Assembly (NCBI RefSeq): GCF_029227915.1
Contig: NC_079882.1
Location: forward strand, 8,556,001-8,620,000
Direction of reading: 5' to 3'
DNA from: Hydractinia symbiolongicarpus
Taxonomy: Eukaryota; Cnidaria; Hydrozoa; Anthoathecata; Hydractiniidae
DNA length: 64,000 nt
Under the pieces are notes generated by a model. It had not been told where the DNA came from and ran no database searches. It was given only the letters and a program-made list of their open reading frames with translations. A program made the translations under genes and the position numbers. Positions 39,914 to 64,000 of the stretch are shown piece by piece (the stretch's first letter is position 1; each line of letters begins with the position of its first letter).

Positions 39914-40849
39914 TTATAATTAATTTTTTTATCTTAAGACAAGAATTAGGTTTCATATTTAATTGGAAATCAGTTGAGAAGTTTTTACCTATCGTCTTTG
40001 TATGTAAGACTTGAATTTGTATTTCGCATGCTGTCAGTAAATTTTGCGGGTTTATTTGCCATTTTTTTTATTTATTTATTTGCTGTTTAAAAAATTAATT
40101 TCTGGATTTTACTGCTCGCCGTTGACGCTTATACGATTTATAAGTTTTTAAAAAGATCCAAAATAAATAAATTAAACGACAAACCTAAAAAAATATTTTT
40201 TACGCCTAATAAGTTGAAATTAGTAAAATCATTTAATTTAAAATGGTAGTCCTCAGGGCGAAAGGAAGAAAAATATTGTATATTTTCGTGTTTTGCAATG
40301 TTTTTCTGCCAGCGTTACAATGTCGCAAAGTTCGCGATTAAATTCTATTTCATGCAGAAAAAAAAATACTTAATAATTGTAATGGAATTATTTTTACTAA
40401 ATTAAAGAATTTAGTTGTTTTTATTAACAAACAGAATGCTCCAACTGTTTCCATCTCACGAATTCTCCTGTTTTCTAGCCAAAGCCGGACCAATCAGGCG
40501 CCAATCTCGTGTAAAATACAAACCATCTTCATGATAAACAACGGATATTTTCGACAACAATTTGTTCTCATTTTTTTTTGCATTTATCTTATCGAAAGAA
40601 TTGTGAATTTTATTACGAACTGAGAAAATTTTGGCTGAGATAAGAACTCCTTGCAAAAGAAGTTATAAAGAAAGAAATAAAATCATTTAAAATATATCTT
40701 GGGCTGGTTGAAATAAAAATAAAAGATGTATAGATAACAGAAAATAAGATTATATATCTTTCACAGAGCAATATCGTTTGGTTTTATGCTATTTGCTATG
40801 ACTGAAGCATATAGTTAAAACTGCAAAAAAAAAAAACGGAATAAGAAAC
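39914..40849 (+). other. Spacer before the GPCR gene
   Basis: No exon is seen. It includes the likely 3' untranslated region of the upstream gene (AATAAA at 40162-40167) and the 5' region of the GPCR. Short ORFs are judged noise. Confidence 0.6.
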
Positions 40850-42247
40850 ATGTTTGAAAATTGCAGTGAGATTATCCAGGAGTTGATTTACCATGACATG
40901 GACAACATTGATCACGCGGAAATTCTGGAAGCCTTAGAATATTTCTGCAGGCTAATCACGAGTGGAAATTTGACAGCCATAAATGAATACTTCCAAAGAG
41001 AATGCTGCACCGTTGGCATGCATTTGCAGTTGTGTCATGAATTCGCTGGCTCGCATTTGAACATGTCTCTTGATCTCAACTGCTCCGATATGAGGTCATC
41101 TCACGTCATGGGTGATTCCCTTCACAACGTGACGTCTTTCTCGGCGATAAATGATCATTTCGATATAATGACGTTTGCACTTATTGTCATCCTTCTTCCA
41201 ATTGGAGTTGCCGGAAACCTGTTAATTTTATACGCCATTTTGAAGATGAAATGCCTTCCGATACAAACAGGATATTTCCTAAACAATCTTGCTATCGCTG
41301 ATTTAGGTGTTATTGTTGAATTTATTGCATACTTTATATATCATAAAGATGACGGTCCAGTCTCGGAAAACATACATAAGTACTTATTCCCGTCGATCGA
41401 CATTTTTTTCGGTTCCGTCTCTTTGCTACAGGTGACGTGTATCAGTATTGAAAGAGCGGTAGCCGTAACATGGCCGTTGAAATATCCGTCATACATCTCA
41501 ATGAGACGTGCAAAGTATGTTGTTTATTTCATCTGGACATTTAGTTTACATCTTGTTGTGTTGGGTCTACTTCGTATTGTTATCACTGACAAAACCTACG
41601 CTCGTTCTGTGTTTTATTTCCAAGTTGTGGTACTTCTACTGATACCAATGAGCGTTATTGTCATAGCTTACTTATTTGTTTTCGTATCTGCGTATCAAAA
41701 TCTCTCCCAGGAAAGGCGACGATTAAAAATGCTGACGTTTATGTTGAGAAATAACGACGTCGTGGCACAGCAGGACGACGGCGACAGAAAACTTACTTGG
41801 AAATCCAATTCCATTCGATGTAAAGAAATCAAGTTATCCTTGAATGTTGCTATGGTAGTTGTACCGTTTTTACTAGTGTGGGGCTTCTTTTTTTTCGTGA
41901 ATGTTTATGAATCAGAAACAGAGCATCAAATTACTGGAGTGTACAACTGGCTAGTCACAATCCTACCCTTCTGCGTATCTACTACAAACCCAGTGTTGTA
42001 TCTAATATTCACTCGATCTTTGCGCAATGCTGTCAAATCCGTTATTAAACGAAAAGTACGGAAGAGACTTAGTCGTACAGAGTTGAGCACTATAACGCTT
42101 TCCTCAAACACTGGAAATAACAGTCGTCGACCGTCATCTGTTACTTATAACGTCACGGCGCTTAATAGCAGCGGTCGAAAAATAGGTCGGGATTTTACTT
42201 ACTTACTGGCGCCAGAAATCGAGGAGGAACAATTAGTCGAGTATTAG
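40850..42247 (+). CDS. Class-A (rhodopsin-like) orphan GPCR, intronless
   Basis: A seven-transmembrane receptor of 465 residues in one exon. Approximate helices: TM1 104-129 (GN at 122-123), TM2 141-165 (LAIAD at 147-151), TM3 178-203 ending ERA in place of DRY, TM4 222-243, TM5 253-281, TM6 328-350, TM7 363-388 (NPVLY at 380-384). A basic cytoplasmic helix and a Ser/Thr-rich tail follow. The extracellular N-terminus of about 100 residues has six Cys and five N-glycosylation sequons (N4, N40, N71, N77, N93). The usual Cys at the top of TM3 and its partner in extracellular loop 2 are not seen. The ligand is unknown; amine or peptide cannot be decided. ATG 40850 is the first in frame. Confidence 0.93.
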   Translation: MFENCSEIIQELIYHDMDNIDHAEILEALEYFCRLITSGNLTAINEYFQRECCTVGMHLQLCHEFAGSHLNMSLDLNCSDMRSSHVMGDSLHNVTSFSAINDHFDIMTFALIVILLPIGVAGNLLILYAILKMKCLPIQTGYFLNNLAIADLGVIVEFIAYFIYHKDDGPVSENIHKYLFPSIDIFFGSVSLLQVTCISIERAVAVTWPLKYPSYISMRRAKYVVYFIWTFSLHLVVLGLLRIVITDKTYARSVFYFQVVVLLLIPMSVIVIAYLFVFVSAYQNLSQERRRLKMLTFMLRNNDVVAQQDDGDRKLTWKSNSIRCKEIKLSLNVAMVVVPFLLVWGFFFFVNVYESETEHQITGVYNWLVTILPFCVSTTNPVLYLIFTRSLRNAVKSVIKRKVRKRLSRTELSTITLSSNTGNNSRRPSSVTYNVTALNSSGRKIGRDFTYLLAPEIEEEQLVEY

Positions 42248-43656: not shown

Positions 43657-45845
43657 TCATTCTTTCTTCACTTTCCGCTCTGACGATTTCGCATCTTCAA
43701 CTTTTGGTTTCTCAATCTTCGATTTTTCAGTCTGTATATGAACATGCACTTCAGGCTTTTCTTCGTCATCTTCATTGTTCTCGTTCACATTCACCATACT
43801 TTGACGCTTGTGATCATATGAGAATGTTCGAGGTGCTTGAGGTATGTACATGGAATGCTTCGGATACACCAGCTGCGGTTCATGTATTGATGGTTCGTTT
43901 ACCACTTGTCGCGAAAACGTGAGAGGTTGGTATTGTCGTCGATCCGCTTGTGCAGCCGGCCAGAAACGTGAACCGAGATTGTAAGCATTACCTACATCTG
44001 TAATCGTTTGAGGTATCTCTTCGTTTGCTGTTAAACGTTCATTTGACGTTGCAGGCATCGTTTCACTTGACACCACATGATCAGTGGTTTCAGGGAAACG
44101 CATGATGTTATTGGCCAAGTAGGGTACAGGTGGCAGCTCTTGTCTTGCTCGCAAAGTACTTCTCAACTGAGCATTCAGTTGTTTCCGCTCTTGATCCATT
44201 TCTTCCTGCTTAATTTCTTCACCAATTTGACGCTGCTTCAAAGCCTCTGCTTCCGCTTGTTCATTAATACTACGAGCTTCATCCATTTGGCGCAATTCTT
44301 CTTCATCTTGAGCTTGCTTCATTTCCCTCATGGCAGCCATCTCCCCAGCCAATTGTTGTCGCTGCTGCATGTTGTTTTCCCGTTGCATATACGGTTGCTG
44401 GAATATCCCTGATTGTCTTTCAACAGTATTTCGTTGCGGTAATAAAGGCTCTTCTACTTGTTGGGGTTGTTCTTGTGCAGGTGCATCCATTGAAGCTCTA
44501 TTTTGAAATCGTTCTTCAATGCGGGGTGTGTCTTCTTGTTGTCGTTGTTGTACGAACTGTACAGGTTGCATTGGTGGTATCTGCGCAATAATAGGTTGTC
44601 GCTCCAGTGGCTGTTCAAAATAATGCCGCTGATGGAACATAGGTAACAAGGGCTGCATAACTTGCGGCTCTTCTTGTTGGATCTGCGGTTGAACAACCAT
44701 TCGATTTTCAGCTACTCTTTGCGGTTCCGCGTACATTCTACTTTCCTGTTGACGTTCACTTGTCATCATCATGCCTTCTGGTTGCATCTGGGCTGGCATC
44801 TCATTTCTGACTTCACCCATTGGAGTTTGTTGAAGAAACTCTTCGTTTGTTGTAGGTTCTCGTTGTACTTGTTGAGCACCAGCCATCTCTTCTCTTTGTT
44901 GAATTCCTTGAGCTGGTTCTTGTAGCAGCTGACTATGGAACTGCCTCACCGGTACTCGGTTGCTCTGGATGAACTGTGGTCTTCTGTGACGAACATGTTT
45001 AATGTTGCCAAAAATCTGATCTTCGACAGCTGGGAACGAATTAGTAGGAGCTTCAGAAGAAACCTTGCCAAGGTTGTTATTCGCAACGTTACTACTTTCG
45101 TCAGGAAGAGGTCCTGGGAAGATGTCAAACGATTTGCTGTTCAGTCCAAGTATTTTTTGCGTTTTTTGTCCAGCCGCCGCTCGCAAAAGTTGAAGGATAG
45201 GGTTCTTCTCGGCTTTTTTACCGTGCACTATAGCTCTCACTTCTGGAGGTTCTTCATTCCACACACTCCCTTCAACATCTCTTTTGTTTAAACTAAGAAC
45301 TCTCCACCGTTTTTCACTTGGTTCTATTTTTTCATTTGAATGAGTGTCATGTATAATTCCTAAATTGTTTTCTGCTTGAACGGGAATGTTGACTGGTTGC
45401 TCGTACTCCATTGCTCTCCTCCGTCGTTTTTTTGAAGGTATGTCATGTCGTTTGTCAGTTTCAATGTTTACTTTGATGTGAGGCTTGTCTTCATCTGGGT
45501 ATGGCTGTGAGTATGGCATTGGATAAAGTCCACGATATCTGGCGAAAGTATTTCTGTAGAATGGTTGCTGTAATCTTGGACGCTCGGAGTATATAGCCGA
45601 AGAAGGCGAAATGTCTGTGGGTTCGTTATAATATTCTTGTCGTTTGTTCCGGATATTTTTATTGTTTGAGATAGACGATCTCTTTTGCGTGGTTTCAATA
45701 TGAATTTTTATGTGTTGATCGTCGTTTGCTATATGTTCTCGATTATTTGTTTGAAATAGTTTTTTCTCTTGGAAATCACTCCCATATACTGGAGTGTACC
45801 TAGCGGCCTCAGATTTCGGTCTCTCTGGATCGACCTGAGACCGCC
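43657..45845 (-). CDS. Giant gene exon 5: Gln/Glu-rich C-terminal region
   Basis: Encodes residues about 4901-5629, ending ERKVKKE. It has no His-heptad cassette. It is Gln/Met/Glu-rich with a probable coiled coil (around 44140-44400: AAMREMKQAQDEEELRQM...). A short motif occurs three times: HIKIHIETTQKR, HIKVNIETDKR and EVHVHIQTEK. The frame is open from the acceptor at 45846 and has no ATG near its start, so it is not a separate gene. Confidence 0.8.
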
Positions 45846-48800
45846 CTAGTATAAAAAATGATTTTTGTTTTTTTGACTTGAATGACTCAAAATGTCATCA
45901 CCTATTGATCGTTTTCCAAGAACATCGACATTCACCGTGGTTTTATGATGTCTGCGCGGTTGAAAATAATTATTAAATCCGTTATTGTATTCGGGAATAC
46001 TGGAATGACGGAACTGATATGGGTTGTAAAATCCGGCTTGACGCTTGGATCTTAATTTACTGTGTTTCGTTTTGAAAAAATTAGATTTTTTGTATGGTTT
46101 CTCTATTTTCTTTCTTTTACTGGCACTGGCTACGTCTTCTTTCCTTTTAAACGAGCTCTCCTCGCCTTCATCTTCTTCATCACTTTCCTCCATACTTTGA
46201 CCGTCAGCAGGTACTTCAGTTCTGCCGAAACCTCCTTCTTCGGGGACTTGACTGGCCATACCCTGTTGGGCAGCACCACTGTCAAACATCTGTTGTTCTC
46301 CCTGTGGTGCCATGCTCATGCCACCCTCCTGGTACATGTTTTGTCCGCCCATTTGATCCCGCCCTTGTGGCATAGAGAAGCCGGATGGTACATGGTGGTC
46401 ATTCTCAAAGTTTTCCACTACAGCATTTTGGTGACCAGCCATTTCTTCTCCTCCGACAAATCCAGATTCCATTCCTTCTGGATGCTGACTAGCGCCGTTA
46501 TATTCCGCCACGTTGCCACCGTGTCCTGCTTCCATCTCACCACTGTATCCTCCGTGACCTCCTTCAGGAGCATGGAAGAATCCCATGCCACCCTGATACA
46601 TAAATCTGTGTTCAGGTACTCCGACATAGGTGCCTGCATTTGTAACCATAGACCCCATGTGAGTTAAGTGAGCAGCAGGATGCATCATAAAAGTGTCATG
46701 AGACTTCAGGATTGGCTGACTAACAGCTGGTGGTGGTTGATGAAAGATCAACGGAGGTTGGTGATACACAACAGCTGGTCTGTGAACGATGACTGGGGGT
46801 TGATGGTAAATAATGGGTGGTCTACGGATAACTAAAGGTGGCCGGTGAACAATAATTGGGGGTCTGTGATAAATCTCTGGAGGGGGATGATAAATAACTG
46901 GAGGTCTTTTCACGACAATATCGTTCTTTTTGCTTGCTTTTCCTTTCTTTGTGTCATCCTCCTCAGCGAGTTTATTTTTCTTCGTTAATTTTGATCTCTT
47001 CTTGTTTTTTCCATCCTTTTTGTTATTGACTTCAGATCTTTTATTTATTAACTTTACTAATTTTGATTTTTTGCTCGATTTATTATTCTTAACAGCTGCT
47101 TTTGTTGCTATGGTTGATTTTTGAGCTCCTGCTTCTTCAGCAATATTGCTATCTTGAGGCTCAGCACTTACTTCTTCCTCTGTATTATCAGCATTTTCAA
47201 CGAAGTTATGTCCTCCTTCGCTATCTCCTCCGGTCTCTTGTTGTTCTCCTTCCCCTTCCGGCATACCAACAGCTTCATGGGAAGACATAACACCAGCACC
47301 ATCCATCAAATGGCTTGCATCACCATACCCAGCATGCGCAAAATGATCTCCATCTGCACCATAGTCAGTTTGACCAATCATTCCACCCACATGATGTAGA
47401 CGACTACTTACATGTTCATACACTGGATGCGTTACATAAGAATCATGTGAATGCACGATTGGTTGATGTATGGCAGGTGGAGGTGTGTAGAAGACAACAG
47501 GTGGTTGATGGTAAACGATGCTTGGTCTATGAACAACTACAGGAGGTCTGTGTACAACAACAGATGGTCTGTGGATTACAACGTCTGGTCGATGGACTAT
47601 CAAATCAGCTCGATGATACACCTCATCTGGTTGATGGTAAACAATAGGTGGTCTGAAAACGACAACGCGGTGCTTTTTAGTTCCACTTTCAGTATGTTCT
47701 TTATGGTGGTGTGATTTAGCAGGAATAGTTGATCGATCGTATCCATGACTATCTTCGTGTCCGCCTTCGTGACCACCTTCGTCCCCGTATCCTCCATGAC
47801 CCCCTTCATGGCCTCCACCACCATGACCTCCACCACCGAAATGGCCAAAACCATGGCCACCACCGAAGTGGCCGAAACCATGACCGCCAAATCCATGTCC
47901 ACCGCCAAATCCGTGTCCACCGCCACCGCCAAATCCATGTCCACCGCCGAAACCATGTCCACCACCGAAACCATGTCCACCGCCAAAACCATGTCCACCA
48001 CCGAAACCATGTCCACCGCCAAAACCATGTCCACCGCCGTAACCATGGCCACCTTCACCTTCTCCCTCACCATCACCACCTTCATGGCCCCAACCATGAC
48101 CATCACCTTCGTGACCATGAGTATCCTCATGATGGGCAATATCATGGCCTTCGTAATAACCTCCATGCCCAACAAATCCACCATCTGCATGCTCCAATTG
48201 AGATCCAACTTGCTCGTGGTTGTCATGCGTCACGTACATATCATGCGACACTACTCTTGGTCGATGTACAACAGGACCAGGTTGATGGAAGACTACAGGT
48301 GGTTGATGATAAATTACAGCAGGTCGATGGACTAAAACAGGTGGTTGATGGATTACCACAGAAGGTCTGTGAATAACAATATCTGGTCTATGTACAATGA
48401 TATCGGGACGATGATATAACTCAGGACGTGGATGAAAAACAATATCAGGTCTAGACACAACGATATTCTGTTCATCTGCATGGTGATGATGATGATCATT
48501 ATGATGCTCCCAAGTATTTCCATGACCATGTCCCCAGTCATGACCTCCCCAATCTTCATCAAAATCGTGATGCCCTCCGTGACCCCCGTGGCCGCCATGT
48601 CCACCATAACCTCCTTCATGGCCACCTTCTCCGTGACCACCATATCCTCCTTCGTGGCCTCCGTAGCCTCCCTCGTGACCACCATATCCGCCCTCGTGAC
48701 CACCATAACCCCCTTCGTGACCACCATAACCTCCTTCGTGACCACCATAACCGCCTTCATAATCACCGTAGCCGCCCTCATGACCTCCATATCCTCCTTC

Positions 48801-51800
48801 GTGTCCACCTTCTTCATGATCACCACCAAAATGCCGCTTCGAACCAGTAACATTTTTTTCTTTGCTAATGGAATGCTTTTTCTTTGAAGCCACCTTTCCT
48901 TTTTTGTATCCACCACACAACTCTACATTGTGAGCATCGTTACAATCTAAACCTGCGTTACCCCAGCCATCGTACCCTCCATGGCCCCAACTACCATACT
49001 GACCGAAGCCTCCATCATATCCTCCTAGATGTCCATTACCATATCCACCAAGATGACCTCCAAACCCTCCATATCCACCACCGTGTCCTTCGTAACCACC
49101 GAAAACTTGATTTCCAACATGCTCGACGTGGGAACCTACATGAACAGGCACTTCGTGGGTTGCATATAAGTCGTGTGAGTGGTGAACAGGTTGATGAACT
49201 ATCGGTCCAGGTTGATGGAAAACGATAGGTGACTGATGAACGACGATCGGAGGTTTATGCATCATCACAGGTGGTCTATGGACAACAACATCTGGACGAT
49301 GAATAACAACATCTGGTCTGTGCACAACTACATCTGGTCTATGAATTATTTCTGGTTTCTGGTGAAATATTACATCTGGTCGATGAATCACAGTTACATG
49401 GTGTTTCTTCGATGCCTTCTTTGCTTTTTTCTTGGGTATGGAAGATCTTCCTGAAGAGTCTTCTGTATCTGGAAGTTGCGGAGCAAATCCGATTGGTCCA
49501 ATAAGGTGCTCATTACCAACTGCCTCTCCACCTACTGCTCCTCCAAAACCCCCGCCATATGAACCAATTCCTGCGCCAAAGCCGCTATGAGAACCATCTA
49601 TTGCGCCAAATCCACCATTAGAAGCATCTATACCACCAGTTGAGCCAAATCCGATGCCCCCCATACCACCATGGCCTTCACCAACAAATCCACCGCCAAA
49701 TGCACCTTCTCCACCTCCAAAGTGGCCATCACTAACTCCAAAGTGGCCATCTCCGATTCCAAAGTGGCCATTGCCAAAATGAGCATCGCCTGTAGTGTGG
49801 GTACCAACATGTTCAATTTCTGAACCAACATGTACTGGTACGTGATGTGTGACAAACATATCATGTGAATGATGAATTGGTTGATTAATTACAGGATGTG
49901 TTTGATGAAAAACAATTGGCGATTGGTGAATCACCATAGGAGGCTTGTGTACAATAACAGCTGGTCTGTGAATTATAACATCTGGTCTGTGGATTACAAC
50001 ATCAGGCCTGTGCACGACGATGTCAGGTCTATGAATAACTTCTGGTCTTTGATGAAAAACTACGTCAGGTCGATGGATCACAGTAACATGGTGTTTCTTT
50101 GCAGCTTTCTCCGACTTACTTTTAGCGGGAGTTCTTTTGTTATCATCTAAAACATTGATCGAATCATCGGCATCTCTTTTAACTTTCTTCGACCTCTTTT
50201 TACTTTTTTTCTCTTTCTTCTTAGACTTTTCAACTTTTGATTTCCCAAACGCTTGACCGTCTCCATGATTTCCAACACCCACAGATAATACACCATCATG
50301 CCCAGTTTGACCATTGACACCATGGACTCCACCAAACCCATACCCCCCAACATTACCAAAGCCATACCCGTGCCCATCACCTCCCGTAAATCCATGTCCG
50401 TCACCTCCTGCATACCCGTGTCCATCACCTCCTGAATAGCCGTGACCATCACCTCCTGCGAACCCGTGACTGTCACCTCCTACAAACCCGTGACCATCAC
50501 CTGCATATCCGTGTCCATCACCTCCCGCATACCCGTGTCCGTCACCTCCCACAAGCCCGTGCCCATCACCTCCTGCATATCCGTGCCCATCACCTCCTGC
50601 AAACCCGTGACCGTCACCTCCTGCAAACCCGTGACCGTCACCTCCTGCAAATGCGTGGCCATCACCGTGACTAATGTCATGACCCTCGTAGAATCCTCCT
50701 TGACCTGTAATGTGTCCAGCGTGTTCCACATCTGAACCGACATGTTCATGAGCGTCGTGAGCAACATAGTGATCATGTGATACTACTTGAGGTCGATGAA
50801 CAACTGGAGGAGGTTGATGGAATACGATAGGAGGCTGGTGAACCACCACAGCAGGTCGGTGAACAAGTACTGGTGCCTGGTGGATTACAACTGATGGACG
50901 ATGAATAACTACATCTGGACGATGTACAACGATATCCGGTCGATGATACAATTCGGGTCGTGGATGGAATACAACATCGGGTCGATATAATACGGTGGAC
51001 TGTGTACCTCCAGTGTGCTCGTCGTGATGGTCCCAATTATTTCCGTGGCCCCACTGACCATGGTTAATATCATGAGCATCTGCATGACCTACCTCAGCAT
51101 GTCCAATTTCATGATCGCCTATGCCTCCCCCAAAACCAATGTGACCGTCTTCATGACCACTAAAACCAACGTCATGACCACCAAATCCACCACCGTGACC
51201 TCCAAATCCACCATCGTGCCCGCTAAAACCACCATAGTGGCCACCGAAACCACCATCGTGGCCACCGAAACCACCATCGTGGCCACCGAAACCACCATCG
51301 TGGCCATTAAAACCACTATCGTGGCCAACAAAACCATCGCCATGGCCACCAAAACCACCGTCGTGGCCACTAAAGCCACCTGTTAAACCACCATAGCTGC
51401 CTTCATGACCACCGATTCCTTCATGACCGGCAAAGCCTCCAACATGTTGTTTTTTAGTTCCTTTTGTAGGCTTCATTTTCTTTTTCTTTAGTGACTTCTT
51501 GTGAGATTTTTTGGTTGGTACTTTTGACTTTGTCCAAGGATGGTCGTTAAAGTTACTTGTGGCAGCACCGGCTACAATTCCTCCGGGAGGTGAAAAGCCT
51601 TCAGGTTGTCCTAAAACTCCACCTACCTCTCCCTCATGGCCATAACCATCATCTCGACCATAGCCTCCTTGATAACCATGACCAAAATCATTTCCATGGG
51701 CAAAATCATCCCCGTGGCCAAGCTCTTCTCCATAACTTCCGCCATGGCCGAATTCCCCTCCATGCGAATATCCATGGCCCAATCCACCGTCATGAATCAT

Positions 51801-54800
51801 TTCAGGACTTCCATGATCGAAATCTTCATCGTGTGCAATTTCAGCGTGACCATCCTCTCCAATTGGTCCAACTGAGCCTTGTAAAGGAACGTCATTTCCA
51901 TGACTAAAATCTGCTCCTGCATCACCGTGTTCTTCTTCGTCATACCCAACAGAAGCATGTCCCATATTTTCAACATGGCCATGAATAGGATATTGTCCTA
52001 TTTGCCCACCAACATGGCGAAGATGAGAACCAACGTGTTCTGGCACATCATGGGTGACGTACATATCGTGCGACACAGCATGTGGTCGATGCACAACAGG
52101 ACCGGGTGTGTTGAAAACGACTGGAGATTGATGATATATTATGGCCGGTCTATGAACCACAACAGGTGGCCTTCGGACCACTACGGAAGGTCTTTTAATA
52201 ACAATGTCCGGTCGATGAACAATCAGTGGTGGTCGATGTACGATTTCTGGAGCTTGGTGATAAATAATATCTGGACGATTTACAACAACTTTGTGTTTTT
52301 TTGATGTGGTTTCTTTTTGCTCCTCTTTTTTTTCTTCTTCCTCATCGTCATCATTATTGTCATCCTCTTTATCAGATTCAACAGATCGTCGAGTTCGTTT
52401 ATTTTTTTGCTTTGTAATTTCCCCACGCTTGTAGGCTTGTGGTGCAGCGAATCCGCCTTCTGGGAGATGTCCCACAGGGCCATTATCAAATGGAGAATTT
52501 TCGTGCGATGGTTCCGCTGGTCCATCACTTCCATAATTATCCAAACCTAGAAGAAATACGAAACAACTGTTAATGTCCGCAGTCCAATTACAACACAAAT
52601 GTTTTGCAAAATTTCAAAAAACTTTAGATAGAAGAAAGAAACAAAACGTATAATCTCATGTTCTAAAATGACAACTAACAGAACACACGCTGCAGAATAT
52701 AAATGTTTTGTATATGTCGATGATACTAATGGAATGAAGATGATTTTCTGTGATGTCTTTATGCCACCAATGGAAACATGCTTTTAAGAGCTCCCATAAA
52801 ACATCCGATTTTTACACTCTGTGCGGTATGCATGCAGTTCCTTTGTTATTACGGAAACAGCGTGGTACTGTCAGTCGTCATTAAAGTTGGCAGCTCATAT
52901 GTACATTGCTTTACCTTCAAGGCCTCCTCCAAGACCATGACCAAATCCACCGTGTTGGCTTATTCCATGATGTGGGAAACCACTGAAGGCTTCGTGACCA
53001 TATCCGCCGGCCATTTCTTCATGACCAAAACCTCCATCAAGACCTTCGTGACCAAAACCACCCATTCCTTCGTGACCAAATCCTGCCATTCCTTCGTGAC
53101 CAAAACCTCCGGCAAGACCGTCATGACCAAAGCCTCCACCAGCGCCGTTATGACCATAACTTCCTCCATATTCCTGTCCATAAGATCCTGAATATTCTTG
53201 ATGACCGCCGTATAGTCCTCCATGCATACCAGGTTCTCCTGGACTGTAATGACCGAACCCGTTACCTTCCTGCTCCCCTGGTCTGCCTGCCTCTCCGTGC
53301 CCCATGTTCGACATCGACATGAAAGGTTCATGGCCTTCGGAACTTTCTGGATCGGCATAAGGCACGTGGCCATTACCGAAACCATGGTAGCCTGAATTTG
53401 GTGCAGGGCCATAACCAGTAGTTCCGTAAAATGGAGAATGTGGGTAGTTTACAATTGGACCGTGAGGTACACCGACATAGCTACCAACTTTATTGACGAC
53501 TGAGCCCATGTGAGTGTAATAAGCGGAAGGATGGAATCTAAATGTATCATGCGACACCAGTAACGGCTGTTGTACCGCTGGAGGTGGTTGATGAAAGACC
53601 AAAGGTGGTTGATGATAAACCACAGCTGGTCTATGAACAATTACTGGCGGTTGATGATAAATGATTGATGGTCTATGTATAAGCAATGGCGGTCTATGAA
53701 CAACTATATCTGGCCTATGGTAAATTTCTGGAGGTGGATGGTAAATAATAGGTGGTCTGCTTACAACAACATCTTTTTTCTTCTTTTTACCTGTCTTAAA
53801 ATTGGTCGAATTTGTAATAGTACCTTTGCTTTTTAGCTTTAAATCCTTGTCAGAGTGAATTTTACTCCGCTTGACAGTGGTGCCTTGAACTAAGGAACCG
53901 AGATTAAAGTTAGCAATGTTTCCCTTAACAGAAGTGGTCTTGTCGCAAATACAGTCTTTTTTTCCAGTGCAGCTACATCCTGTAGGGTGGACATGCGGCT
54001 CGACATGATAATCATGCACATGGTGAGTAATCACTCGATGATGGTGAACAACTGGATGAACCACTATAGGTGCTTGGTGAACGACAACTGGTGGCTTATG
54101 TACTACCACCGGCGCTTGGTGGTAAACAATAGGCCTTCGATGGACAATTATAGGAGCTCTATGTATAACAATATCTGGACGATGAATAACATCTGGAGGC
54201 TGTGGTACTATAATGTCAGGACGTTTATAAACAGTAGTTTCGTGATGATCGTGATCGTCCCCATGAAATCCAACGTCATGCATTCCTCCTTCATGCATAC
54301 CTTCAACATGCACGCCACCATCTTGAATTCCACCATCATGACCGTCTAATGAGGTGTAATCTCCGTGATTATAGTTCATTTCCCCATGATCGTAACCAGA
54401 ACTGATAATACCACTGTTTCCGTCGTAGCCTCCTCCAAAACCATACCCATGTCCCTCAATTCCCCCGCCAGTCATGTGAGAAACAGGACCACCTACTCCG
54501 TATCCTACATTAACGGTCCCACTTGTGGGACAATCGTCATCACAATGGTCTCCACAATCTATACAGCGAGAAGATATATCTTGTTTTTTAGAATTAGTAA
54601 AATAATTACTTCCGTGTGCTGCTAGAAGGGACCTTTGCGTTGCATTAGCAACTTTCATCCTCTTGTCTTCGCTGTTTGGATCACACACGCAGTCTTTTTT
54701 GCCCATGCAATCACAACCTGTTTCGTGAGCGTGATTGTCTTCGTGATAATCGTGCACATGATGAGTGACCATTCTGTGATGGTGCACCACAGGATGAACA

Positions 54801-57800
54801 ACAATAGGTGATTGATGTACAATTACGTTGGGCTTGTGCACTACAATAGGCCTCTGGTGGTAGATTACTGGACGTCTGTGCACAATGATCGGTTTCCGAT
54901 GAATAACCAAATCTGGACGATGTACTACATCTGGAGGCTGTGGAACAACTATGTCAGGTCGATGATAAACCGTAGTATGACCATGATGTTGATGATGATG
55001 GCCTTCCCCAAGTGCTCCAACAAACCCATCGTGTCCATAAAATCCGCCATGTTCATATCCTCCATGACCAAATTCGCCACCAACACCAACACCAGTACCA
55101 AAACCACCAACACCAACACCACCACCAAAACCGCCAACACTACCACCAAAACCACCATAACCACCACCAATACCAACGCCACCATCGTGTCCAAAATCTC
55201 CAGCTACACCTGAACTAATTCCATGTCCGAAAGCATTTCCTCCTAAACCAAATCCATGCCCATAGCCATACCCTCCTATTCCAGCATCTACACCATGACC
55301 GAAGTCAGCGCCATGACCGAAATCACCGCCAATACCATCTCCACCAAGTTCAAATCCGCCATGTCCTAAACCGCCTTCCAAACCATATCCATGACCTCCA
55401 AAACCACCGTCAAAGCCCTCTACACCATGGCAGCTTGGATCGCAATGATCACCACAATCCAGGCATCGCGTGGAAATGTCTTGCTTTTTCTTTGCAGCTT
55501 TACCATGTGAAGTGCTCGTTTTCGACTTTTTCGTAGATTTCTGCACTGTAGATTTTCTTTTTGAGTTAGACACATCGCCTTGATCTAACTGCTCTTGTGG
55601 AAAACGTTGATCATCAGGAGCTTGTGCTGCTGTTTTAGCATCAAGTGTGTTATCATTTTCTGTTGAATCTGTATTTTCCTCATTTGGGGAATCTTCTTCA
55701 GATGGTTCATCTGAAGCTTTTGGTCCCACAGCGCCATTCAAATAATTTGATATATCATCATCTAGAAAAAGACATGTGAACAGTACGAAAACAGTGCGTA
55801 TTTAAACAGACACTTACAAAAATCTATCTTACAATAATTTTAAATGTTTACGCAACAAAACATAGAAATTAGTGCAATCAGTCTGATGCGTAGAAACATG
55901 TGCGTGTTTATTATGTGCGTGTCGAATCAGTAAAATCGTTGATCAATGTTGGCTGGGTCAGTAATATTTTTGTTTACCTGAAGTTTCGTCAGGTGTTGCT
56001 CTTTGTACAACATGAAGGATTTTAGATCGCGATTCACCTCTTTCGTCCGTACGACCTCCCTCCTCCTCCTCCTCCTCGTCCCTATCCTCCTCCTCTTCAC
56101 GTTCCTCAATTCTCGAGCGAGATTTGCCACTATCGTCATCATCATCTTCATCATTTTCTTCCTTATCATCTTTATCATCTTTACCTTTGTCCTCTTCTTC
56201 GTCTTCGTCATTCTTCCTATCTCCTTCGCCTCCCTCTAAGCGCTCACCCATAATATGACCATAATGTCTAGTACCGTATACATCTCCAAAGCCGTGTTCA
56301 CTGTACAACTCGCCTCTGTACATGGGGTGATGATGATGTCCAATGAATTCGTGACTAGTACCGTAATCAGCATGAGGCATGTAACCTCCGTAGAAGTCTC
56401 CAACACCAAAATGTCCTTCCCTCAGATTATCAAAGATGTGGTGACCATCGTAACCGTGAGAATAGCCGTGTATGTGAAATGGATTACCCATTAAGTCATG
56501 TACCTTTGTAACGTGAGAATGAACATGACTAAACCTAGGTACAGGTGCGTACATATCGTGTGAGTAAAACTTTTGATGGTGTACCATTGGGGGTGGAGTG
56601 TGAAACACAACATCTGGCTGGTGATAAAATATTGGTGGTCGATGGATGACAACAGGGGGTTGGTGAACAATAATGGGAGGACGTTGGACTAACAATGGAG
56701 CCCTATGAATCACTATATTAGGCCTATGAACAACTTCCGGAGGGGGATGAAATACAACACCGGGTCTGTGAAGTACCACTTCTCTTCCACCATCATGGCT
56801 GTGATGAAACTCAAAGGTACTGTGGCCATGATCGAACAAATACTGTCTTTTACTGCCAGTTTCTTCCTTGTGATGTTTCTTATGTTTTCCTTTAGATATT
56901 TTTGATCGCTTAAAACGACCCATGGCTTCCATGCCGTTTGGCACATCATTTGGATAAGCAAGGGGCTCCAAAGACTGATTTTCCATACTTCCTTCCATGC
57001 CTTGTTCACCCTGTTCTGGCTCTATAGCGCTTGGAGATTGGCTAAAACCAGGGAAACCTGATACGCCAGGTTGTTCCATATCCATTGTTCGAGTTTGTGA
57101 TGGTTGAAAAGCAGGTTCGTTCATAGCGAATGGTTCGTTAGAAGCGGAATCGTGAAGAGATCTCAAATCGGGAAGGGCACTATGATCAAACCCTAATCCA
57201 TGAATACCATTCTGTGTCATTAGAGCTTCGTTCAGGTTTCCGCCATTCATTTCTGCTGAATGAAAACCTCCTTCACCTAAATCATGTGAATTTGAGCTAT
57301 GTGATTCCTCTTCTAACTGACCTGCGAGACCTTGAAACAAAGGTTGACCCATGTGTGTTAAAAGACGTGGTGGGCCAATGTAATGGTGTGCTGTGCGTAG
57401 TATAGAGCCCAAGTGTTGTGCAACAAAGCTTGGGTGAACAACAAATGTGTCGTGTGAGTAAAGTAATGGTTGTTGTACGGCAGGAGGTGGTTGGTGGAAG
57501 ATAATAGGTGGTTGATGGTAGACCACAGCAGGTCTGTGTACAATCACAGGAGGTTGGTGATATATAATGGGTGGACGGTGTATGACTATAGGAGGTCTGT
57601 GAATAACTATATCTGGCCTATGATAAATTTCTGGGGGTGGATGATAAATAATAGGTGGCCTATTAACAACAACATCTTTCTTCGTACCTTTCTTGTCTTT
57701 CGTTCTTGTCTTCCCACCGCTGGCAGCCCGTCGCAATCGTGAGAGAGTTGACTTTTTCTTTTGTTTACTCTTCTTTCTATCTTTTCTTTTGTGAATATCA

Positions 57801-60800
57801 GACTTTCTAATGCCATTATCAATGCTGCCCTCACCTGGATTGGCTACACTCAACCCTTGAACCTCTTGCCCTCCAATTTGACCTACGGCACCATCCTGAA
57901 CACCCATTGATCCACCATCCACACCCATGCCCATATTCCCACCTTCAACACCTTCCGCACCTACTGCGCCACCTTCAGCACTCACCCCACCACCCTCAGC
58001 GCCTACGCCACCGCTTTCGACAGCCAAGCCACCATTAACACCACCAGCCATCATTCCATTGTTACCACCTTGTAAATCAGTCTCGCCTTCATGAAAATCA
58101 CCATGACCAAAGTTTATGCCGTTTGCGTTTGTTACGCCTTCAGAGTCCCACCCAAGTTGTTTGGGCACACCAGACCATACCCCTGCATGTTGTATCTCCG
58201 AGCCAACGTGATGAAGTGATGGAATTGGCATCCACGAGTCATGCGATCGTAGGAGAGGTTGATGAACAACAGGCGGTGGTTGATGAAATATCAAAGGTGG
58301 TTGTTTGTAAATTACTGCAGGTCTGTGCACAATCACAGGAGGTTGATGATAAACAATAGATGGTCTTTCTATAAGAATAGGTGGTCGGTGTAAAACTATA
58401 GCTGGCCTATGGTAAATCTCTGGAGGAGGGTGATATATCACTGGAGGACGATTTACGATGACGGCATTCTTCTTCCCACCTCTAGCTTGTTTTAATTTCT
58501 CAGTTTTGGCATATTTTCTCTTACTTTTTCTTGGCTCTCCATTTGCGTCTCCCTTCACATCACGTTTGTGCACAATATTACCGGCTTCAGTGTTGTTCTT
58601 AGCAGCAGTTCCATTTTTTGCATCAGCCACATCGTTTGTGCTTAATTTTAAGCTAGTACTGTTCTTCCCATCGAAGTTCATCGACTTACTTTTACCCACT
58701 TCAATGGTTATATCGTGTGCCTTACTGCTCTCCTCCTTTGGAGCAATTTGTTGAAGTGTATTATTTAAAGGTTCTGTGGAAAGAGGCGTGGTACTGTTGC
58801 TCCCAAGCACAGTTTCATTTGTGTTTGTAGAGTTATTTGGCAAGTTATCTTTCTTATATCCATGCTCGTATGATTCCTCATCATAACTCGGTTTCCGTTC
58901 AATGTGCGAATCTGTTGTAGGTAAGTCACTTTTTACATCGTGGCTATCTGCAGGGTACATGTCTGGTCTCGGTACATCTCCCAGAGGTAGCATACCTCCA
59001 ATTTTTTTGTACATCTGCTCTTGAATGTCAGTAATATGTGCGAATTCTTTGTCCTCCTTTGCCGCTTCTTCTTGTTCACTACTTTGCATGCCATAATCAC
59101 CGTGCACCTCAGGAAGAGTGTTTGCTCCTTGCTCCAAATTCTTTGCAGTGCCATCGCTCTCCTCCGTGGGAAAAGCAATGGGACTAAACGGGCCGTCTTT
59201 AGGAATATCAAATCGAGCTTTTCCGTTTTCATTTCTAAAATAAAATTAGATACAGTATCAGAATGAAGCTATTTGTACTAATTTTTCGCGCAGTTGAGTA
59301 AAAAAGGTCGTTAGTTCGCGAAATTTAGGGGAAGGGGTGTGTTTTTAGCAAAGTTTAAACGACAAGCTAAATTTTGTTTAATTTTTCAATTCTAGTACGA
59401 AAACTATAATCGCTAATTCTTCTCATACACATTTAATTTTTAAGAACATTTTTATAAGAATAACAAAATTCTAACCAAGATAGTCGTTATTCTTATTTCT
59501 TTATTATTCCAAACAATAGACCTAAAAGGCTGCTCTTATATTCTTATAAAGCATATTCTTATAAAGCATATTCTTATAAAGCATATTCTTATAAAGCATA
59601 ATTCTTTTAAAAGAAAAAAAAGCGTGCAAGTTGACATTGGGAATGAAATAAAAGACCTTTCAAAAATGCTTAGTCTCAACTAGGGCGATTAATGAGAGCG
59701 TAAGAGCGATTAACCTTCATATATCTACTTATATTATTTATAAATATGTTACTATTTATATCTATTACTATTAATGTTTTCATAAATAGTAATATAAAGG
59801 TTTAACAGCCAGACGCACGAGATTCAAAACTAAACCTTTTTTTTATAGCAGATCCAGTTTCGACAGCTTTTCAACTTTTACCGCGATTTTGTTTCAAAAG
59901 ATTTCTTGCCTAAGTTATCGAAATTCAGTGAGGAAAATGTAGGGAAACAGTATCCCATCTTGTACACATCTTTTTTAAAAACGCATCTTATGTAACACTT
60001 CAGTTATAAGAAATATTTTATCAGGAAGATCATTCAAAACTTAATACCTAGCTTACACTGCCAATTTTTAAGCTTTAGTAAAAATTTAAATTAAAAAAAA
60101 AAGCAACCTCGATCTCAGGGCCTGTAGAGCAAGGTTACTTAATCACTTTATGCTAACAGGGTGACCAAGATACACAAAATAACGAGGTGGGGGAATACAT
60201 GGGTTAATTCCCATGGATTTTTTCACAGGCTAATATTGTCCAAGGTAATAAACTTATTGTTATCTAATTGTTTTTATAAGAAACCACTTTATAAGCGACT
60301 TTTATCAGTTGTTAAAATGTAAAATTTTTAAGAAAAAAAAACTTTTTTAGTGCAAAATTTAGGAAACTTTTACAAGTTGTATGTTAACTTGATTTCCTAT
60401 AAGAAAAAAAAACGTTTACAGGAGATTGTTAGCGCATTATAAGCTTTTACTATATCGGCAAAATATAGAACTGTCTATTCATCAATCTGTTGTTGAAAAC
60501 ATACATCACTTTGTTATCATAAAAACAGCTAAACAAGGCATCTTTACTAGGTTGAATATTCCGAGCGAAATAAATTTAAGCAGTTTGTTTGGCTGGCGAA
60601 AATTTTTGCTGTTGGAAAGTAGAATCGATTCCTCGATTATGACGTTGCTAGGTAACGTATCTCTCATTGCTGCAAATGAGGCACATAATTCTCAAAGTGG
60701 AAATTTGTTGATAAATAAAAAATCAACATTAATTAATCTTTGATCATGTGGTGCGCACAGTAAAAAAAAAAAATTCACACTGTGCAGAAGGCTGTTAAGA

Positions 60801-63439
60801 AAGGTACATTTGTACCCACAAACACCGCCCATATTTAAAGAGGTAATTTGTACTCACAAACCTCACCCATATTAAAAGAGGTACATAGGTACTCACAAAC
60901 CCCACCCATATTAAAAGAGGTACATTTGTACTCACAAACCCAGCCGTATTCAACACTAAAAGCCGATTCAAATTACAAAACCAGTTTTAATTTGGGAAAA
61001 AATTCAGACTATTGCGAACATTTACGTCATCTTTTTTTATGAAGGGTATTTTCACACTACAGGCTTTTTTGTAAGAATAGTGTTTTTTCGTTTCAAAATG
61101 ATATTCTTCACGTTTGGGCAAATATCATCCTGATATATTCTTAGCACTTTTGAGATTGAATGACCTGAGAATGCAAACTGGTGAAAAAATCACCCCTAAG
61201 ATGCTTGTTTAACCAGTTTAATTCAACTGACAGACAACTAGATCTTATTAAGAAAAATACTTCAAACGTAAATCAATGATAAAATTTTTAAGATGACCAT
61301 ATACTTAGAATATTTTCAGTTTTTATTCCAATTTTATCTTGAAAATTCTCGTGTATAATACATCGTGGCAATACTGTGCAATATTTATCAATTATCTCTA
61401 ACATATTAATGGCAATGTATTGCTGTAATGTGAAACGGCCTTTATAACACAATCAAGCGAAGAAAAATAAAAGAAAGGTCTTTTTACCTGAAATGACCAA
61501 AACTTCGTTTGCTTCCCTTGTCATCTTTCTCAAAGGATGCAGCGTGTTGAGATTTAAGTTCGGCTGCCGTCGGTAAGTCTGGTATATACCGTCCTGGGTC
61601 ATCACTCATATGTATTCTATCAAGTTCTCTACTCGCATCATGTAGGTGTTCATACGGAGCCTTTCCTTCCAGCTGATGCGTTTCAGCTTCAACGACAGAC
61701 TCATGTAACGATGGCAATCTTTCAGTTAACCCTGAACTAGACAACGGAACTCCATCACTAAATCTAGCCAAAGGAACAGAATGGTGTGCGTATTGATGAT
61801 ACAAAGGCGATTCGTAATCTAACTGACGCTCTTTGTCAGCTTGGGTGTCTGCAAACTCGCGTATTGTAGATTCGTGTAACTGACGCAAGCGGGCCTCGTG
61901 CATGCGCTCTCGCTCTTCCAGATCTAAGCCGTGGTTCATGTACATACTTTCAGAGTCAGGTAAGGCAATGCCAGGGTTGAAACCATTGGCACTTTCTGAG
62001 GAACCTAATCTGGGATCGAGAGCACTTTCAACATTAGATCGGCCGTAGCCAGTGACATCACGCATAGGTAACATGCTTCTACCATACCCGCGTCCGTATC
62101 CACCGCCTCCATAACCACCTCCCCACCCTCCTTCTCCACCCATACCGCCCATACCACCCATTCCGTGACCCCAGGTATCTCCATAGCGAGGAATGTCGAA
62201 AAAGTGCGGCACATCGTGGTGTTCTTCGTGGTGATGATAGTCAAACATGTGAGGTTCTATGAACGATTCTGGAACGTAATGCACATGATGGGGGCGATGG
62301 TGATGGTGTCGTCTGTGGTGATGATGGTGATGATGCGGACGGTGATAATGCATTGGTTCATGATACATTTCCATTGGAGGGTGTACATAAGGTACACTTT
62401 GGCCGTGAGAACCCGGTCTTGATACAACTTGTAAAGATGCAGGCTTCGCTTTCACTTTTACACCAGCAGAATTTGCATTTATTTCCAAATCAGCAGACTT
62501 ATCGTCTACCTGAAAATGAGATGGAGCTCCACCATCTTGCATGTCATGTGTGTCTGCTACGGCATGCTCCCCGTCCCTCTTACTTAACACTACGGGGTCT
62601 TCATTCATAGAAATACTACGTTTCACAGTCGTCAAAAAGGGTTCGTTCATTTCAACGTCATGCTCCTGCTCTTGCTCGTAAAAATACGGATCATAATAGT
62701 CACGAGCATTCTCAATATACGAAGAGTCGCTGTCTTTAAATAAGCTATTAGCCGTCATGTCAAATGTAGGTGTCGTAACGTCATGACGCTTGTTGTCAAC
62801 GTCATTGATACCTAGCATTTCACCGTTAGATATGTCCTTTCGTTCGTCGTACTGTTTTGTGAGTTCAGTGTTTACCATAGGGTGATCGACATTAGAGTCC
62901 ATACCTTGACTGAGATGCGCTTCTTCTTCTTCCTTTTCACTTTCTTCCTTCGCTGAAGTAATGACGTCATTACGAGCTTGCGTTAGTTTCTTATCCTTAC
63001 GCTTACTTCTTTTCTCAGCATGTTTTGAACGTGTATTATGTTCACTGTTCTTGTGTTTTAAAACTACCTCGGGATGATCATCACTTTTCTTCTTCGTCTC
63101 AGTTTCATCGTCTTCACTCTCACTCTCAGTATCTTTACTTTTACTGCCTGCAAGCTTGGAGTTGGACTTAACAACGTCTGACTCAGATTCGTCGTCATCA
63201 TCACTGTCTATAGTTTTATTTATCACTTTATCTCTCTCTTGAGAAGGGACAGGGATTTCTTCCCTTTTATTTAATTCGGGTGTGTCGTATAAGGCATCAC
63301 CCACGAATTGATTTTCTTCTAAGTCTCTTTTCGATCTGCGTATTTGTCGTTCGTACTTGGTTTCCGCTACTATCAAGCCATTCAACAATACAATAACTAT
63401 AAGCAATTTTAAGCGAATATTTGGAGGAAAAACCCCCAT
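43657..63439 (-). CDS. Giant secreted His-heptad / Gly-His repeat precursor protein
   Basis: Five exons join in phase by GT-AG introns: 61488-63439, 55978-59234, 52915-55761, 45902-52546 and 43657-45845. They give 16,890 coding bases, about 5,629 residues. It starts at ATG 63439 with a signal peptide (MGVFPPNIRLKLLIVIVLLN, then GLIVA) and the furin-like RRSKR at residues 34-38. The body contains 13 cassettes of about 10 consecutive heptads (for example HRPDIVV, HRPDVVI, HQPPVVF), 11 of them closed by Ser-His-Asp plus an aromatic, often followed by HVGS. Lys-rich linkers with RSKR, VKR or RLRR sites and Gly/His tandem repeats separate them. No catalytic or transmembrane domain is seen. I know no family of this architecture. 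A structural extracellular polyprotein with metal-binding or cross-linking His is my inference. Confidence 0.82.
45846..45901 (-). other. 56-bp intron of giant gene
   Basis: Donor ATAG|GTGATGAC and acceptor TATACTAG|GGCGG; phase 1 is kept and a TAG stop that would end exon 4 is removed. It is very short compared with the other introns of the gene. Confidence 0.65.
45902..52546 (-). CDS. Giant gene exon 4: seven His-heptad cassettes
   Basis: A single 6.6-kb exon encoding residues about 2686-4900. Cassettes lie near 52000-52290, 50700-51000, 49800-50100, 49115-49400, 48185-48470, 47390-47680 and 46640-46930. They are separated by Gly/His repeats and Lys-rich linkers (KKVKR, NKRTP, RSKRQAGF). 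Most cassettes begin KK-H-x-V after the Lys-rich stretch, and most end in SHDMY, SHDLY, SHDSY or similar, then HVGS. Both exon boundaries are phase 1. Long antisense frames over this exon are composition artefacts. Confidence 0.88.
46640..46930 (-). repeat. His-heptad cassette 13 (most C-terminal)
   Basis: Begins KKNDIVVKRPPVIYH and ends with SHDTF and a THMGS variant of the HVGS motif. It belongs to the PPPEIYHRP subtype shared with cassettes 1, 2 and 6. Confidence 0.85.
47840..48060 (-). repeat. 18-bp coding tandem repeat (GGGHGF)n
   Basis: At least eight near-identical 18-bp units encode Gly-Gly-Gly-His-Gly-Phe in exon 4. The DNA is very uniform, so copy number may be polymorphic or mis-assembled. 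Confidence 0.9.
48570..48810 (-). repeat. 21-bp coding tandem repeat (GHEGGYG)n
   Basis: About ten 21-bp units encode Gly-His-Glu-Gly-Gly-Tyr-Gly in exon 4, with synonymous changes between units. Confidence 0.9.
50370..50670 (-). repeat. 24-bp coding tandem repeat (GGDGHGF/YA)n
   Basis: Roughly a dozen 24-bp units encode Gly-Gly-Asp-Gly-His-Gly-aromatic-x in exon 4; one unit has Ser for Gly (GGDSHGF). Confidence 0.9.
51170..51400 (-). repeat. 21-bp coding tandem repeat (GGFGGHD)n
   Basis: About ten 21-bp units encode Gly-Gly-Phe-Gly-Gly-His-Asp in exon 4, between cassettes 7 and 8. The unit is seven residues with one His, as in the heptad cassettes. Confidence 0.9.
52547..52914 (-). other. 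Giant gene intron 3
   Basis: 368 bp, donor GAAG|GTAAAG and acceptor TTCTTCTAG|GTTTGG. No other feature seen. Confidence 0.75.
52915..55761 (-). CDS. Giant gene exon 3: two Cys-bracketed and one plain cassette
   Basis: Residues about 1737-2685, phase 1 at both ends. Two modules have the order CxxCGDHCxxxC cluster, Gly-rich stretch, variant heptad cassette (with VVPQPPDV and no SHD end), HHHR...THHVHDYH, then GCxCxGKKDCxCD (cassettes at about 54710-54985 and 53965-54245). A plain cassette (53480-53780, ending SHDTF) and a Gly/His/Phe tail (GFGHEGMAG units) follow. These clusters hold the obvious paired cysteines of the protein, so disulphide- or metal-stabilised modules are likely. The first residues after the acceptor are DDDISNYLNG. 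Confidence 0.88.
53480..53780 (-). repeat. His-heptad cassette 6
   Basis: Begins KKKDVVVSRPPIIYH, ends SHDTF, then THMGS. Its sequence is very close to cassettes 2 and 13. Confidence 0.85.
55762..55977 (-). other. Giant gene intron 2
   Basis: 216 bp, donor TCAG|GTAAAC and acceptor TTTTTCTAG|ATGATG; phase 1. No other feature seen. Confidence 0.75.
55978..59234 (-). CDS. Giant gene exon 2: three His-heptad cassettes
   Basis: Residues about 651-1736. It opens with NENGKARFDIPKDGPF, a Glu/Ser/Asn-rich acidic stretch with several Asn-x-Ser/Thr sequons, and VHKRDVKG. Cassettes lie near 58205-58470, 57365-57680 and 56510-56790, ending SHDSW, SHDTF and SHDMY. Basic linkers between them contain RLRRAASGG and RFKRSK / TGSKRQYLF. 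A short Gly/Val repeat region (GGVGAEGGGVSAEGG) lies between cassettes 1 and 2. The 3' end is a highly acidic Glu/Asp tract (about 56040-56220). Confidence 0.88.
59541..59600. repeat. 15-bp tandem repeat, four copies
   Basis: ttcttataaagcata is repeated exactly four times in intron 1 of the giant gene. Confidence 0.95.
60799..60945. repeat. 39-40-bp tandem repeat, about 3.7 copies
   Basis: Units built on gtactcacaaaccccaccca and tattaaaagaggtaca repeat in intron 1 of the giant gene, with minor changes. Confidence 0.9.
61488..63439 (-). CDS. Giant gene exon 1: signal peptide and acidic/His-rich leader
   Basis: Residues 1-651. Signal peptide, then RRSKR|DLEE (likely proprotein-convertase site). 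An Asp/Glu/Ser/Lys-rich disordered stretch follows, then a degenerate cassette-like region with a dense His cluster (about 62240-62370: HRPHHHHHHHRRHHHHRPHH), a Gly-rich segment (about 62060-62170) and an Arg/Glu-rich end with LEERERMHEARLRQLHE. The frame is open upstream to a TTG codon at 63460, but the first ATG (63439) directly heads the signal peptide and is preferred. Confidence 0.85.
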
Positions 63440-64000
63440 GTTATACTCTCCGCGATGCAAGGTAATAAATTCTTGTTATGTCATAATACGTTCGAGGTGT
63501 AAAATTTATTCAGAAAAACATATTTTGTACGAGAATATCGCTTTTAGTTTTTTTTTGATAGCTTCTGGCTAGTTTTTTAAAAATTATCTTCGGCACTGGT
63601 GGGTGACCTCACTTGCATAGAACTCGTTTCGCCTGAGTGAGCTAGCTAGCGCGCCACCCGTAACGCACTGATCATTGATTGCACAGTGCAGCAAAAAGAA
63701 TTATACAGACATTCAACGTTAATTAAAAGAAGAATTAAACAAACAAAAATATGAAATTTTAACACGGTATTGTAAAAAATTCCAAGGGAAAACACACAAA
63801 TTCTTTTTTATAACATACAAACAAGAAATGCCAAAAAATTTTGGATTTTCTAATTTCAGAGATATCTTAGCAAACAAGAGAAAGAGAATTCCATAATTAG
63901 CGGTTAATTCTTGAATTCGGCATGATAAATTAAGCTTAATTATAACTGTTGTTAGTTTCGAGACATAATTAACAAGATCACTGTGTTACACATGAGAAAA
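63440..64000. other. Upstream region of the giant gene
   Basis: No ORF of note. This should contain the 5' leader and promoter of the minus-strand giant gene. A block with gagctagctagcgcgc lies near 63640; I could not identify a TATA box or initiator with confidence. Confidence 0.5.

Follow-up and report, generated by a model that had tools for sequence, protein, structure and literature searches.

Locus architecture

Five long stop-to-stop ORFs occupied the minus strand of the window (a 64,000-nt stretch of Hydractinia symbiolongicarpus contig NC_079882.1), at 61484-63475, 55958-59245, 52895-55801, 45846-52613 and 43657-45894. The proposal of an earlier note, that these ORFs are joined by four canonical, phase-matched introns, was borne out. 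Joining the exons from 63439 to 43657 gave 16,890 nt and a 5,629-residue product with a single, terminal stop, and all four introns were GT-AG, in phases 2, 1, 1 and 1. The exons and introns were:

61488..63439, minus strand: exon 1, residues 1-650 and part of 651; signal peptide, propeptide ending RRSKR, acidic region, invariant block, poly-His/Arg region
59235..61487, minus strand: intron 1, 2253 bp, phase 2, donor CAG|GTAAAA
55978..59234, minus strand: exon 2, cassettes c1-c3
55762..55977, minus strand: intron 2, 216 bp, phase 1, donor CAG|GTAAAC
52915..55761, minus strand: exon 3, cassettes c4-c6 and paired Cys motifs
52547..52914, minus strand: intron 3, 368 bp, phase 1, donor AAG|GTAAAG
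45902..52546, minus strand: exon 4, cassettes c7-c13 and Gly/His tracts
45846..45901, minus strand: intron 4, 56 bp, phase 1, donor TAG|GTGATG; open on read-through to an in-frame TAG
43657..45845, minus strand: exon 5, Gln-rich and C-terminal, stop codon TGA

All four acceptors ended in TAG, and the donor of intron 4 was, judged by eye, the weakest of the four. The G+C content was 0.43-0.47 in the exons versus 0.25-0.35 in the introns. Intron 1 also contained two minisatellites, at 60795-60941 (39 bp x 3.8) and 59538-59611 (15 bp x 4.9).

The product was expected to carry one signal peptide, and a simple hydropathy proxy, used in place of a signal-peptide program, agreed: only Met1 precedes a signal-like hydrophobic stretch (mean hydropathy 3.05, versus 1.25 for the next best Met). 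The AlphaFold prediction for exon 1 was not usable as a fold (pLDDT 43, with most of the non-helical rest below 50); it placed helices at residues 6-31 and, as the sole other longer one, 507-542.

Thirteen heptad cassettes and their conservation

A profile built from the 13 window cassettes themselves recovered the predicted 13 His-rich heptad cassettes in the product, of which exons 2 and 3 encode three each and exon 4 seven. The same profile found one to seven cassettes in each of the 30 homologue-search matches (30/30) and none in the other proteins examined. The cassettes, all located by the profile, were:

58154..58462, minus strand: c1
57359..57673, minus strand: c2, near-invariant among relatives
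56471..56779, minus strand: c3
54680..54973, minus strand: c4
53945..54235, minus strand: c5
53456..53770, minus strand: c6, near-invariant among relatives
51969..52289, minus strand: c7
50676..50996, minus strand: c8
49770..50084, minus strand: c9
49080..49394, minus strand: c10
48141..48464, minus strand: c11, near-invariant among relatives
47349..47666, minus strand: c12
46605..46919, minus strand: c13, near-invariant among relatives

In a tree of 94 cassettes, the nearest neighbour of 12/13 window cassettes was the cassette at the same position in a relative (positions in P0002 were counted from its end, the first exon-4 cassette being absent there). The exception was c10, which was closest to the adjoining window cassette c9. 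The near-identical P0015 supplied the closest, or equally closest, neighbour of each of c1-c3. Distances to the same-position cassettes listed were 0 to 0.14 for c2, c6, c11 and c13, and the nearest same-position counterpart other than P0015 lay at 0.26 to 0.73 for the other nine. Seven pairs of similar window cassettes used the same codon at only 17-30 of their 42-53 identical residues, so their likeness does not stem from recent copying. This near letter-for-letter conservation, in places, of a low-complexity His-Pro repeat across relatives is unusual, since structural repeats normally drift. The position-specific identity of almost all the cassettes suggests a built, ordered material as opposed to simple filler. 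AlphaFold returned no usable fold for one cassette (pLDDT 60, pTM 0.13).

Conserved blocks, cysteine motifs and Gly/His tracts

Outside the cassettes, the following features were recognised:

63365..63439, minus strand: predicted signal peptide, approximately residues 1-25 (hydropathy; AlphaFold helix 6-31; hydrophobic starts in exon-1 relatives)
62411..62524, minus strand: 38-residue invariant block, residues 306-343 (PSHFQVDDKS...VVSRPG), from exon-1 ORFs of relatives
50363..50666, minus strand: Gly/His tract, a 24-bp tandem array
45103..45204, minus strand: exon-5 block, residues 5115-5148 (NPILQLLRAAAG...FPGPLP), with at least 20/34 residues matched in 34/34 exon-5 search matches
43714..43761, minus strand: C-terminal conserved motif EKPEVHVHIQTEKSKI, from comparison with relatives

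The 38-residue block was identical at 38/38 positions in 23/24 exon-1 ORFs (P0031-P0054) and at 37/38 in the remaining one, and at least 28/38 positions were matched in all 39 exon-1 search matches (39/39). It was also present (28-29 of 38) in P0065, P0067 and P0068, which had no heptad cassette and were otherwise Met/Gly-rich; the block thus defines a wider family. Exon 3 (53945-55761) carried two pairs of Cys motifs around c4 and c5, in which CxxCGDHCxxxC precedes and CxCxGKKDCxC follows the cassette. The pattern, which is unlike that of minicollagens, was the same in P0021, P0024 and P0025 and differed in numbers in P0022.

Several of the Gly/His tracts in the window were tandem arrays at the DNA level, with units of 18-24 bp. 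In five of the six exon-4 intervals the Gly+His fraction was 0.40-0.66 in the window, versus 0.18-0.44 in P0001 and 0.19-0.46 in P0002 (four of these intervals). For whole exon products it was 0.32 versus 0.18 (P0001) and 0.22 (P0002) for exon 4, 0.29 versus 0.19-0.22 (four relatives) for exon 3, and 0.18 versus 0.09-0.20 (eleven relatives) for exon 2. Relatives also have Gly/His intervals, and it is in exon 4 of the window that they are amplified in comparison to P0001 and P0002. The Gly/His repeats named earlier in the combination of features are present, but they are weak as a defining part of the family, given the exon-4 excess over both relatives, although exon-2 products show no such difference.

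Predicted processing sites

Lys-Arg (KR) dipeptides were 2.6-fold enriched in the product (38 versus 14.6 +/- 3.5 expected; shuffling within 60-residue blocks, 2000 rounds), and none of the 2000 shuffles reached 38. The control dipeptide RK showed no enrichment (15 versus 14.5 expected), RX[KR]R occurred nine times versus 1.8 expected, and RR 14 times versus 16.0. The anticipated Lys-rich linkers were also found; KK was enriched (56 versus 37 expected), so part of the basic signal reflects linker composition. A KR or RxRR site was present in 9/12 inter-cassette linkers and absent from the other three. At the end of the propeptide, RxKR was invariant in 25/25 alignment rows. Enriched KR and RX[KR]R sites between units are a feature of polyproteins cut by proprotein convertases, shared here in the form of predicted sites, and the product is likely to be a polyprotein cleaved at Lys-Arg.

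Relationship to known families

Among the window's five ORFs and six relatives, Pfam gave nothing above cutoff except Chorion_3 (PF05387, cutoff 22), matched by the exon-4 ORF (27.8 bits) and P0005 (27.2 bits). Natural cassettes scored 8.2 (c13), 7.4 (c2) and 17.6 bits (c11; 14.9 for its 77-residue core), and versions with permuted heptads scored 14.3, 6.5 and 14.8 bits for c13 and 13.5, 9.7 and 8.6 bits for c11. A stretch comprising a Lys-rich linker and c13 exceeded the cutoff at 24.1 bits; no single cassette tested reached 22. The match looks mainly compositional, with a small effect of residue order for c11, and we set the chorion family aside on overlapping scores of natural and permuted cassettes, controls that are not fully decisive. 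DUF7732 in exon 3 (22.7 bits, cutoff 27) and Cuticle_3 in c11 (15.8 bits, cutoff 27.1) fell below cutoff. Searches of PDB sequences yielded one match to the cassette profile (E 0.64, nothing relevant) and one to the exon-5 profile (TBP, E 0.039, probably through its Gln-rich part). The exon-1 profile gave 35 matches, none relevant, in or close to the poly-His region and for the most part where chains begin, which are probably His tags.

In the open PMC literature, sequence strings matched no paper and the text examined held no description of the cassette family; phage records contained no relatives. Scans of viral_contigs (P0005) and genome_contigs (P0088) likewise returned no DNA of relatives with patterns that lay outside the most conserved parts. 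The only named relative was P0083 from Hydra vulgaris, entered at NCBI as 'signal transducer and activator of transcription C-like'. It is a homologue of exon 5 only, with 31/34 residues of the exon-5 block and the C-terminal EKPEVHVHI motif, and shows that the family occurs at least in Cnidaria. With an E limit of 10 it matched no STAT family (DUF7768 was the one match, 11.4 bits, cutoff 26), and exon 5 of the window matched 0 Pfam families. The STAT name looks wrong by this Pfam result; P0083 probably represents part of a larger gene. The view that no described family has this combination of features is consistent with Pfam and the open PMC literature, but it needs qualifying in that many relatives without a name exist and exon 5 is included in a Hydra gene model. 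Exon-wise ORF calls and the misleading Hydra name hide the family, which has no Pfam entry of its own.

Two kinds of described material offer a further comparison. In mussel byssal preCols and other silk-like structural proteins (PMC4944945), His-rich segments are thought to cross-link and are combined with Gly-rich flanks in a modular layout. The product differs from the preCols in having no collagen triplets, in carrying its His within a proline heptad, and in the positional conservation of its cassettes. Judged by hand, it has the signal peptide and low-complexity repeats of the silk-like structural proteins described in the same paper (PMC4944945).

Alternative readings of the locus

The ORFs are each long, and the database mostly holds exon-sized ORFs singly, as would be the case if the locus were a tandem set of separate intronless genes. 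We regard such a set as highly improbable. Besides the matching phases, the first ATG lies at codon 330 in exon 3, 161 in exon 4 and 109 in exon 5, with conserved coding sequence upstream of each, namely the c4 heptads, the c7 heptads and an HIKIHIET...KR motif with counterparts in relatives. Barring a non-AUG start, these regions would be translatable only by way of an upstream exon (exon 2, with its first Met at codon 49, is less telling). Nor does the product contain a second signal-like stretch. Exon boundaries, deduced in relatives from protein letters and not DNA, also look conserved. The last residue before the stop of exon-1 ORFs was Arg in 13/24 relatives and another residue in 11/24 (Arg overall 6.4%), as expected if these ORFs read through a conserved AG|GTAA phase-2 donor. 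In the exon-2 relatives P0007, P0010 and P0017, whose ORFs extend into the intron, Arg precedes a GKARFDIP-like sequence, as a phase-2 acceptor would give. At the acceptor sites of exons 4 and 3, LG occurs in P0001, P0002 and P0022 where the window has LG or LD (P0025 is ambiguous). Homologues of different exons shared contigs of equal size, a proxy for contig identity: 420242 (exons 1, 4 and 5), 818469 (1, 2 and 5), 5058551 (1 and 2), 408965 (1 and 2) and 164507 (1 and 5). None of the matches placed all five exons on one such contig, and exon 3, tied to no shared contig, is linked to the others by position, phase and its conserved start only. Two relatives combine modules in a single ORF. P0005 joins the 38-residue block to a signal-like start and five cassettes, and is the sole one of 40 block carriers also to have cassettes (the exon-1 search was limited to proteins of 0.55-1.75 times its length). 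P0003 has six cassettes and an exon-5-type VNVNIETxKS motif. Since both look like paralogues, they are evidence that the modules form a set, but not that this locus is spliced in the same way. Taken with phases, late ATGs, boundaries and contigs, these fusions point to the five exons likely being one gene and are in keeping with the single secreted polyprotein originally proposed, with retention of intron 4 possible in some transcripts.

Such retention is the basis of a further reading, in which intron 4 stays in the main transcript, and exon 5 either is added in some transcripts only or is a separate downstream cistron with a trans-spliced leader; we think this improbable. Without splicing, exon 4 extends 18 codons further to a TAG, the same one that serves as acceptor, giving 4,918 residues. 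The read-through tail of the window aligned better with the tails of P0001 and P0002 than all shuffles (0/1000 each), and shuffles matched or beat the alignments of window-P0023, P0001-P0002 and P0001-P0023 in 1/1000, 0/1000 and 5/1000 cases. In all three relatives that cover the end of exon 4 (P0001, P0002 and P0023; 3/3), the ORF stops 18-19 codons past a conserved GKR, compared with 20 in the window. The NCBI model P0083 presents exon 5 alone, as 568 residues, and alternative stops have a cnidarian precedent at the Hydra spinalin locus, where spinalin is reported to arise by splicing as the short version of a longer transcript of a single 50-kb locus (PMC2687796). Yet the first 108 codons of exon 5 are conserved and contain no ATG, and the exon lacks a signal-like stretch. 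Counterparts of its KR sites and of its VHIQTEKS motif occur in P0003 and in P0061, the latter with a signal-like start. The tails themselves end in pyrimidine-rich codons followed by a stop, as for a 3' splice site, and a pyrimidine tract ahead of a TAG acceptor would be able to produce similar tails. Moreover, 17-codon stretches of introns 1-3 were open by chance in 811/2786 cases (29%), and the P0002-P0023 tail alignment did not stand out (122/1000 shuffles). Splicing of intron 4 is our main reading, and the 4,918-residue retained form is a serious possibility beside it.

As to function, the product might be packed into the stinging capsule and form spines, tubule or matrix there, like spinalin, which we consider doubtful. 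The signal peptide and the propeptide ending in Lys-Arg favour a nematocyst protein, although KR propeptides are common outside nematocysts. The minicollagen Cys-rich domain pattern (CxxxCxxxCxxxCxxxCC) was found in 0/105 proteins, the window product included, as were collagen Gly-X-Y tracts, taken as five successive G-X-P or G-P-X triplets (0/105). The product has just 18 Cys in 5,629 residues, and the excess of Gly+His in exon 4 over P0001 and P0002 likewise speaks against the capsule. According to the cnidoin paper (PMC4321713), a propeptide ending in Lys-Arg is conserved in diverse nematocyst proteins, and cnidoin combines it with a signal peptide in a repetitive structural protein, as here. 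The repeats of cnidoin and the minicollagens differ from those of the product, which has neither the minicollagen Cys-rich pattern nor Gly-X-Y. The Gly- and His-rich composition resembles that of Hydra spinalin, a nematocyst spine protein, which is the nearest described cnidarian Gly/His structural protein as described in PMC9205923. Spinalin also parallels a possible feature of the present locus in its alternative stop codons; its transcripts are approximately 1 to 3 kb, versus 16.9 kb of coding sequence here, a comparison by description (PMC2687796).

Proposed nature of the product

We consider it probable that the locus is one gene for a secreted precursor of 5,629 residues, comprising a single signal peptide and 13 His-Pro heptad cassettes, that would be cut at Lys-Arg and likely assembles into extracellular structural material. 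The structural role is deduced from composition and conservation. Proprotein convertases would cut in the linkers, freeing cassettes singly or a few at a time. A cassette may form an extended strand made up of some ten H-[RQ]-P-x-[VI]-[VI]-x repeats, in which His side chains aligned every seven residues could bind metal or allow cassettes to pack side by side. The Lys-rich linkers, together with Tyr, might supply covalent cross-links, with the Gly/His tracts acting as fast-changing filler and the 38-residue and exon-5 blocks as putative assembly or sorting signals.

Cuticle, perisarc, capsule and mucus were the candidate sites put forward earlier. Hydra polyps have no perisarc, which makes a role in the perisarc only less likely, and use in an epithelial coat or matrix is slightly favoured over the nematocyst. 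More speculatively, and to our minds unlikely, the cassettes could represent a new metal-binding or pH-sensing His-Pro heptad fibre domain, 13 of them in a row within a polyprotein of ancient origin; retention or removal of intron 4 would then switch its assembly by omitting or adding the conserved exon-5 assembly module. As one gene in a laboratory animal, the locus offers a tractable handle on what may be an undescribed biomaterial.

Neighbouring features

Tail to tail with the polyprotein gene lies a rhodopsin-type GPCR in one ORF (7tm_1, 1.8e-27). This and the other features noted in the window were:

40802-42244, plus strand: the rhodopsin-type GPCR
36208-38964, plus strand: highly charged ORF of 919 residues, with no Pfam match at E 0.01
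32309-32776, minus strand: weak, sub-cutoff match to ANF_receptor (receptor ligand-binding region), with a signal-like start
4514-5095, plus strand: GIY-YIG fragment

The GIY-YIG fragment may derive from a Penelope-like element, and the ORF at 32309-32776 is perhaps the first exon of a glutamate-receptor-like gene, the receptor type being a guess.
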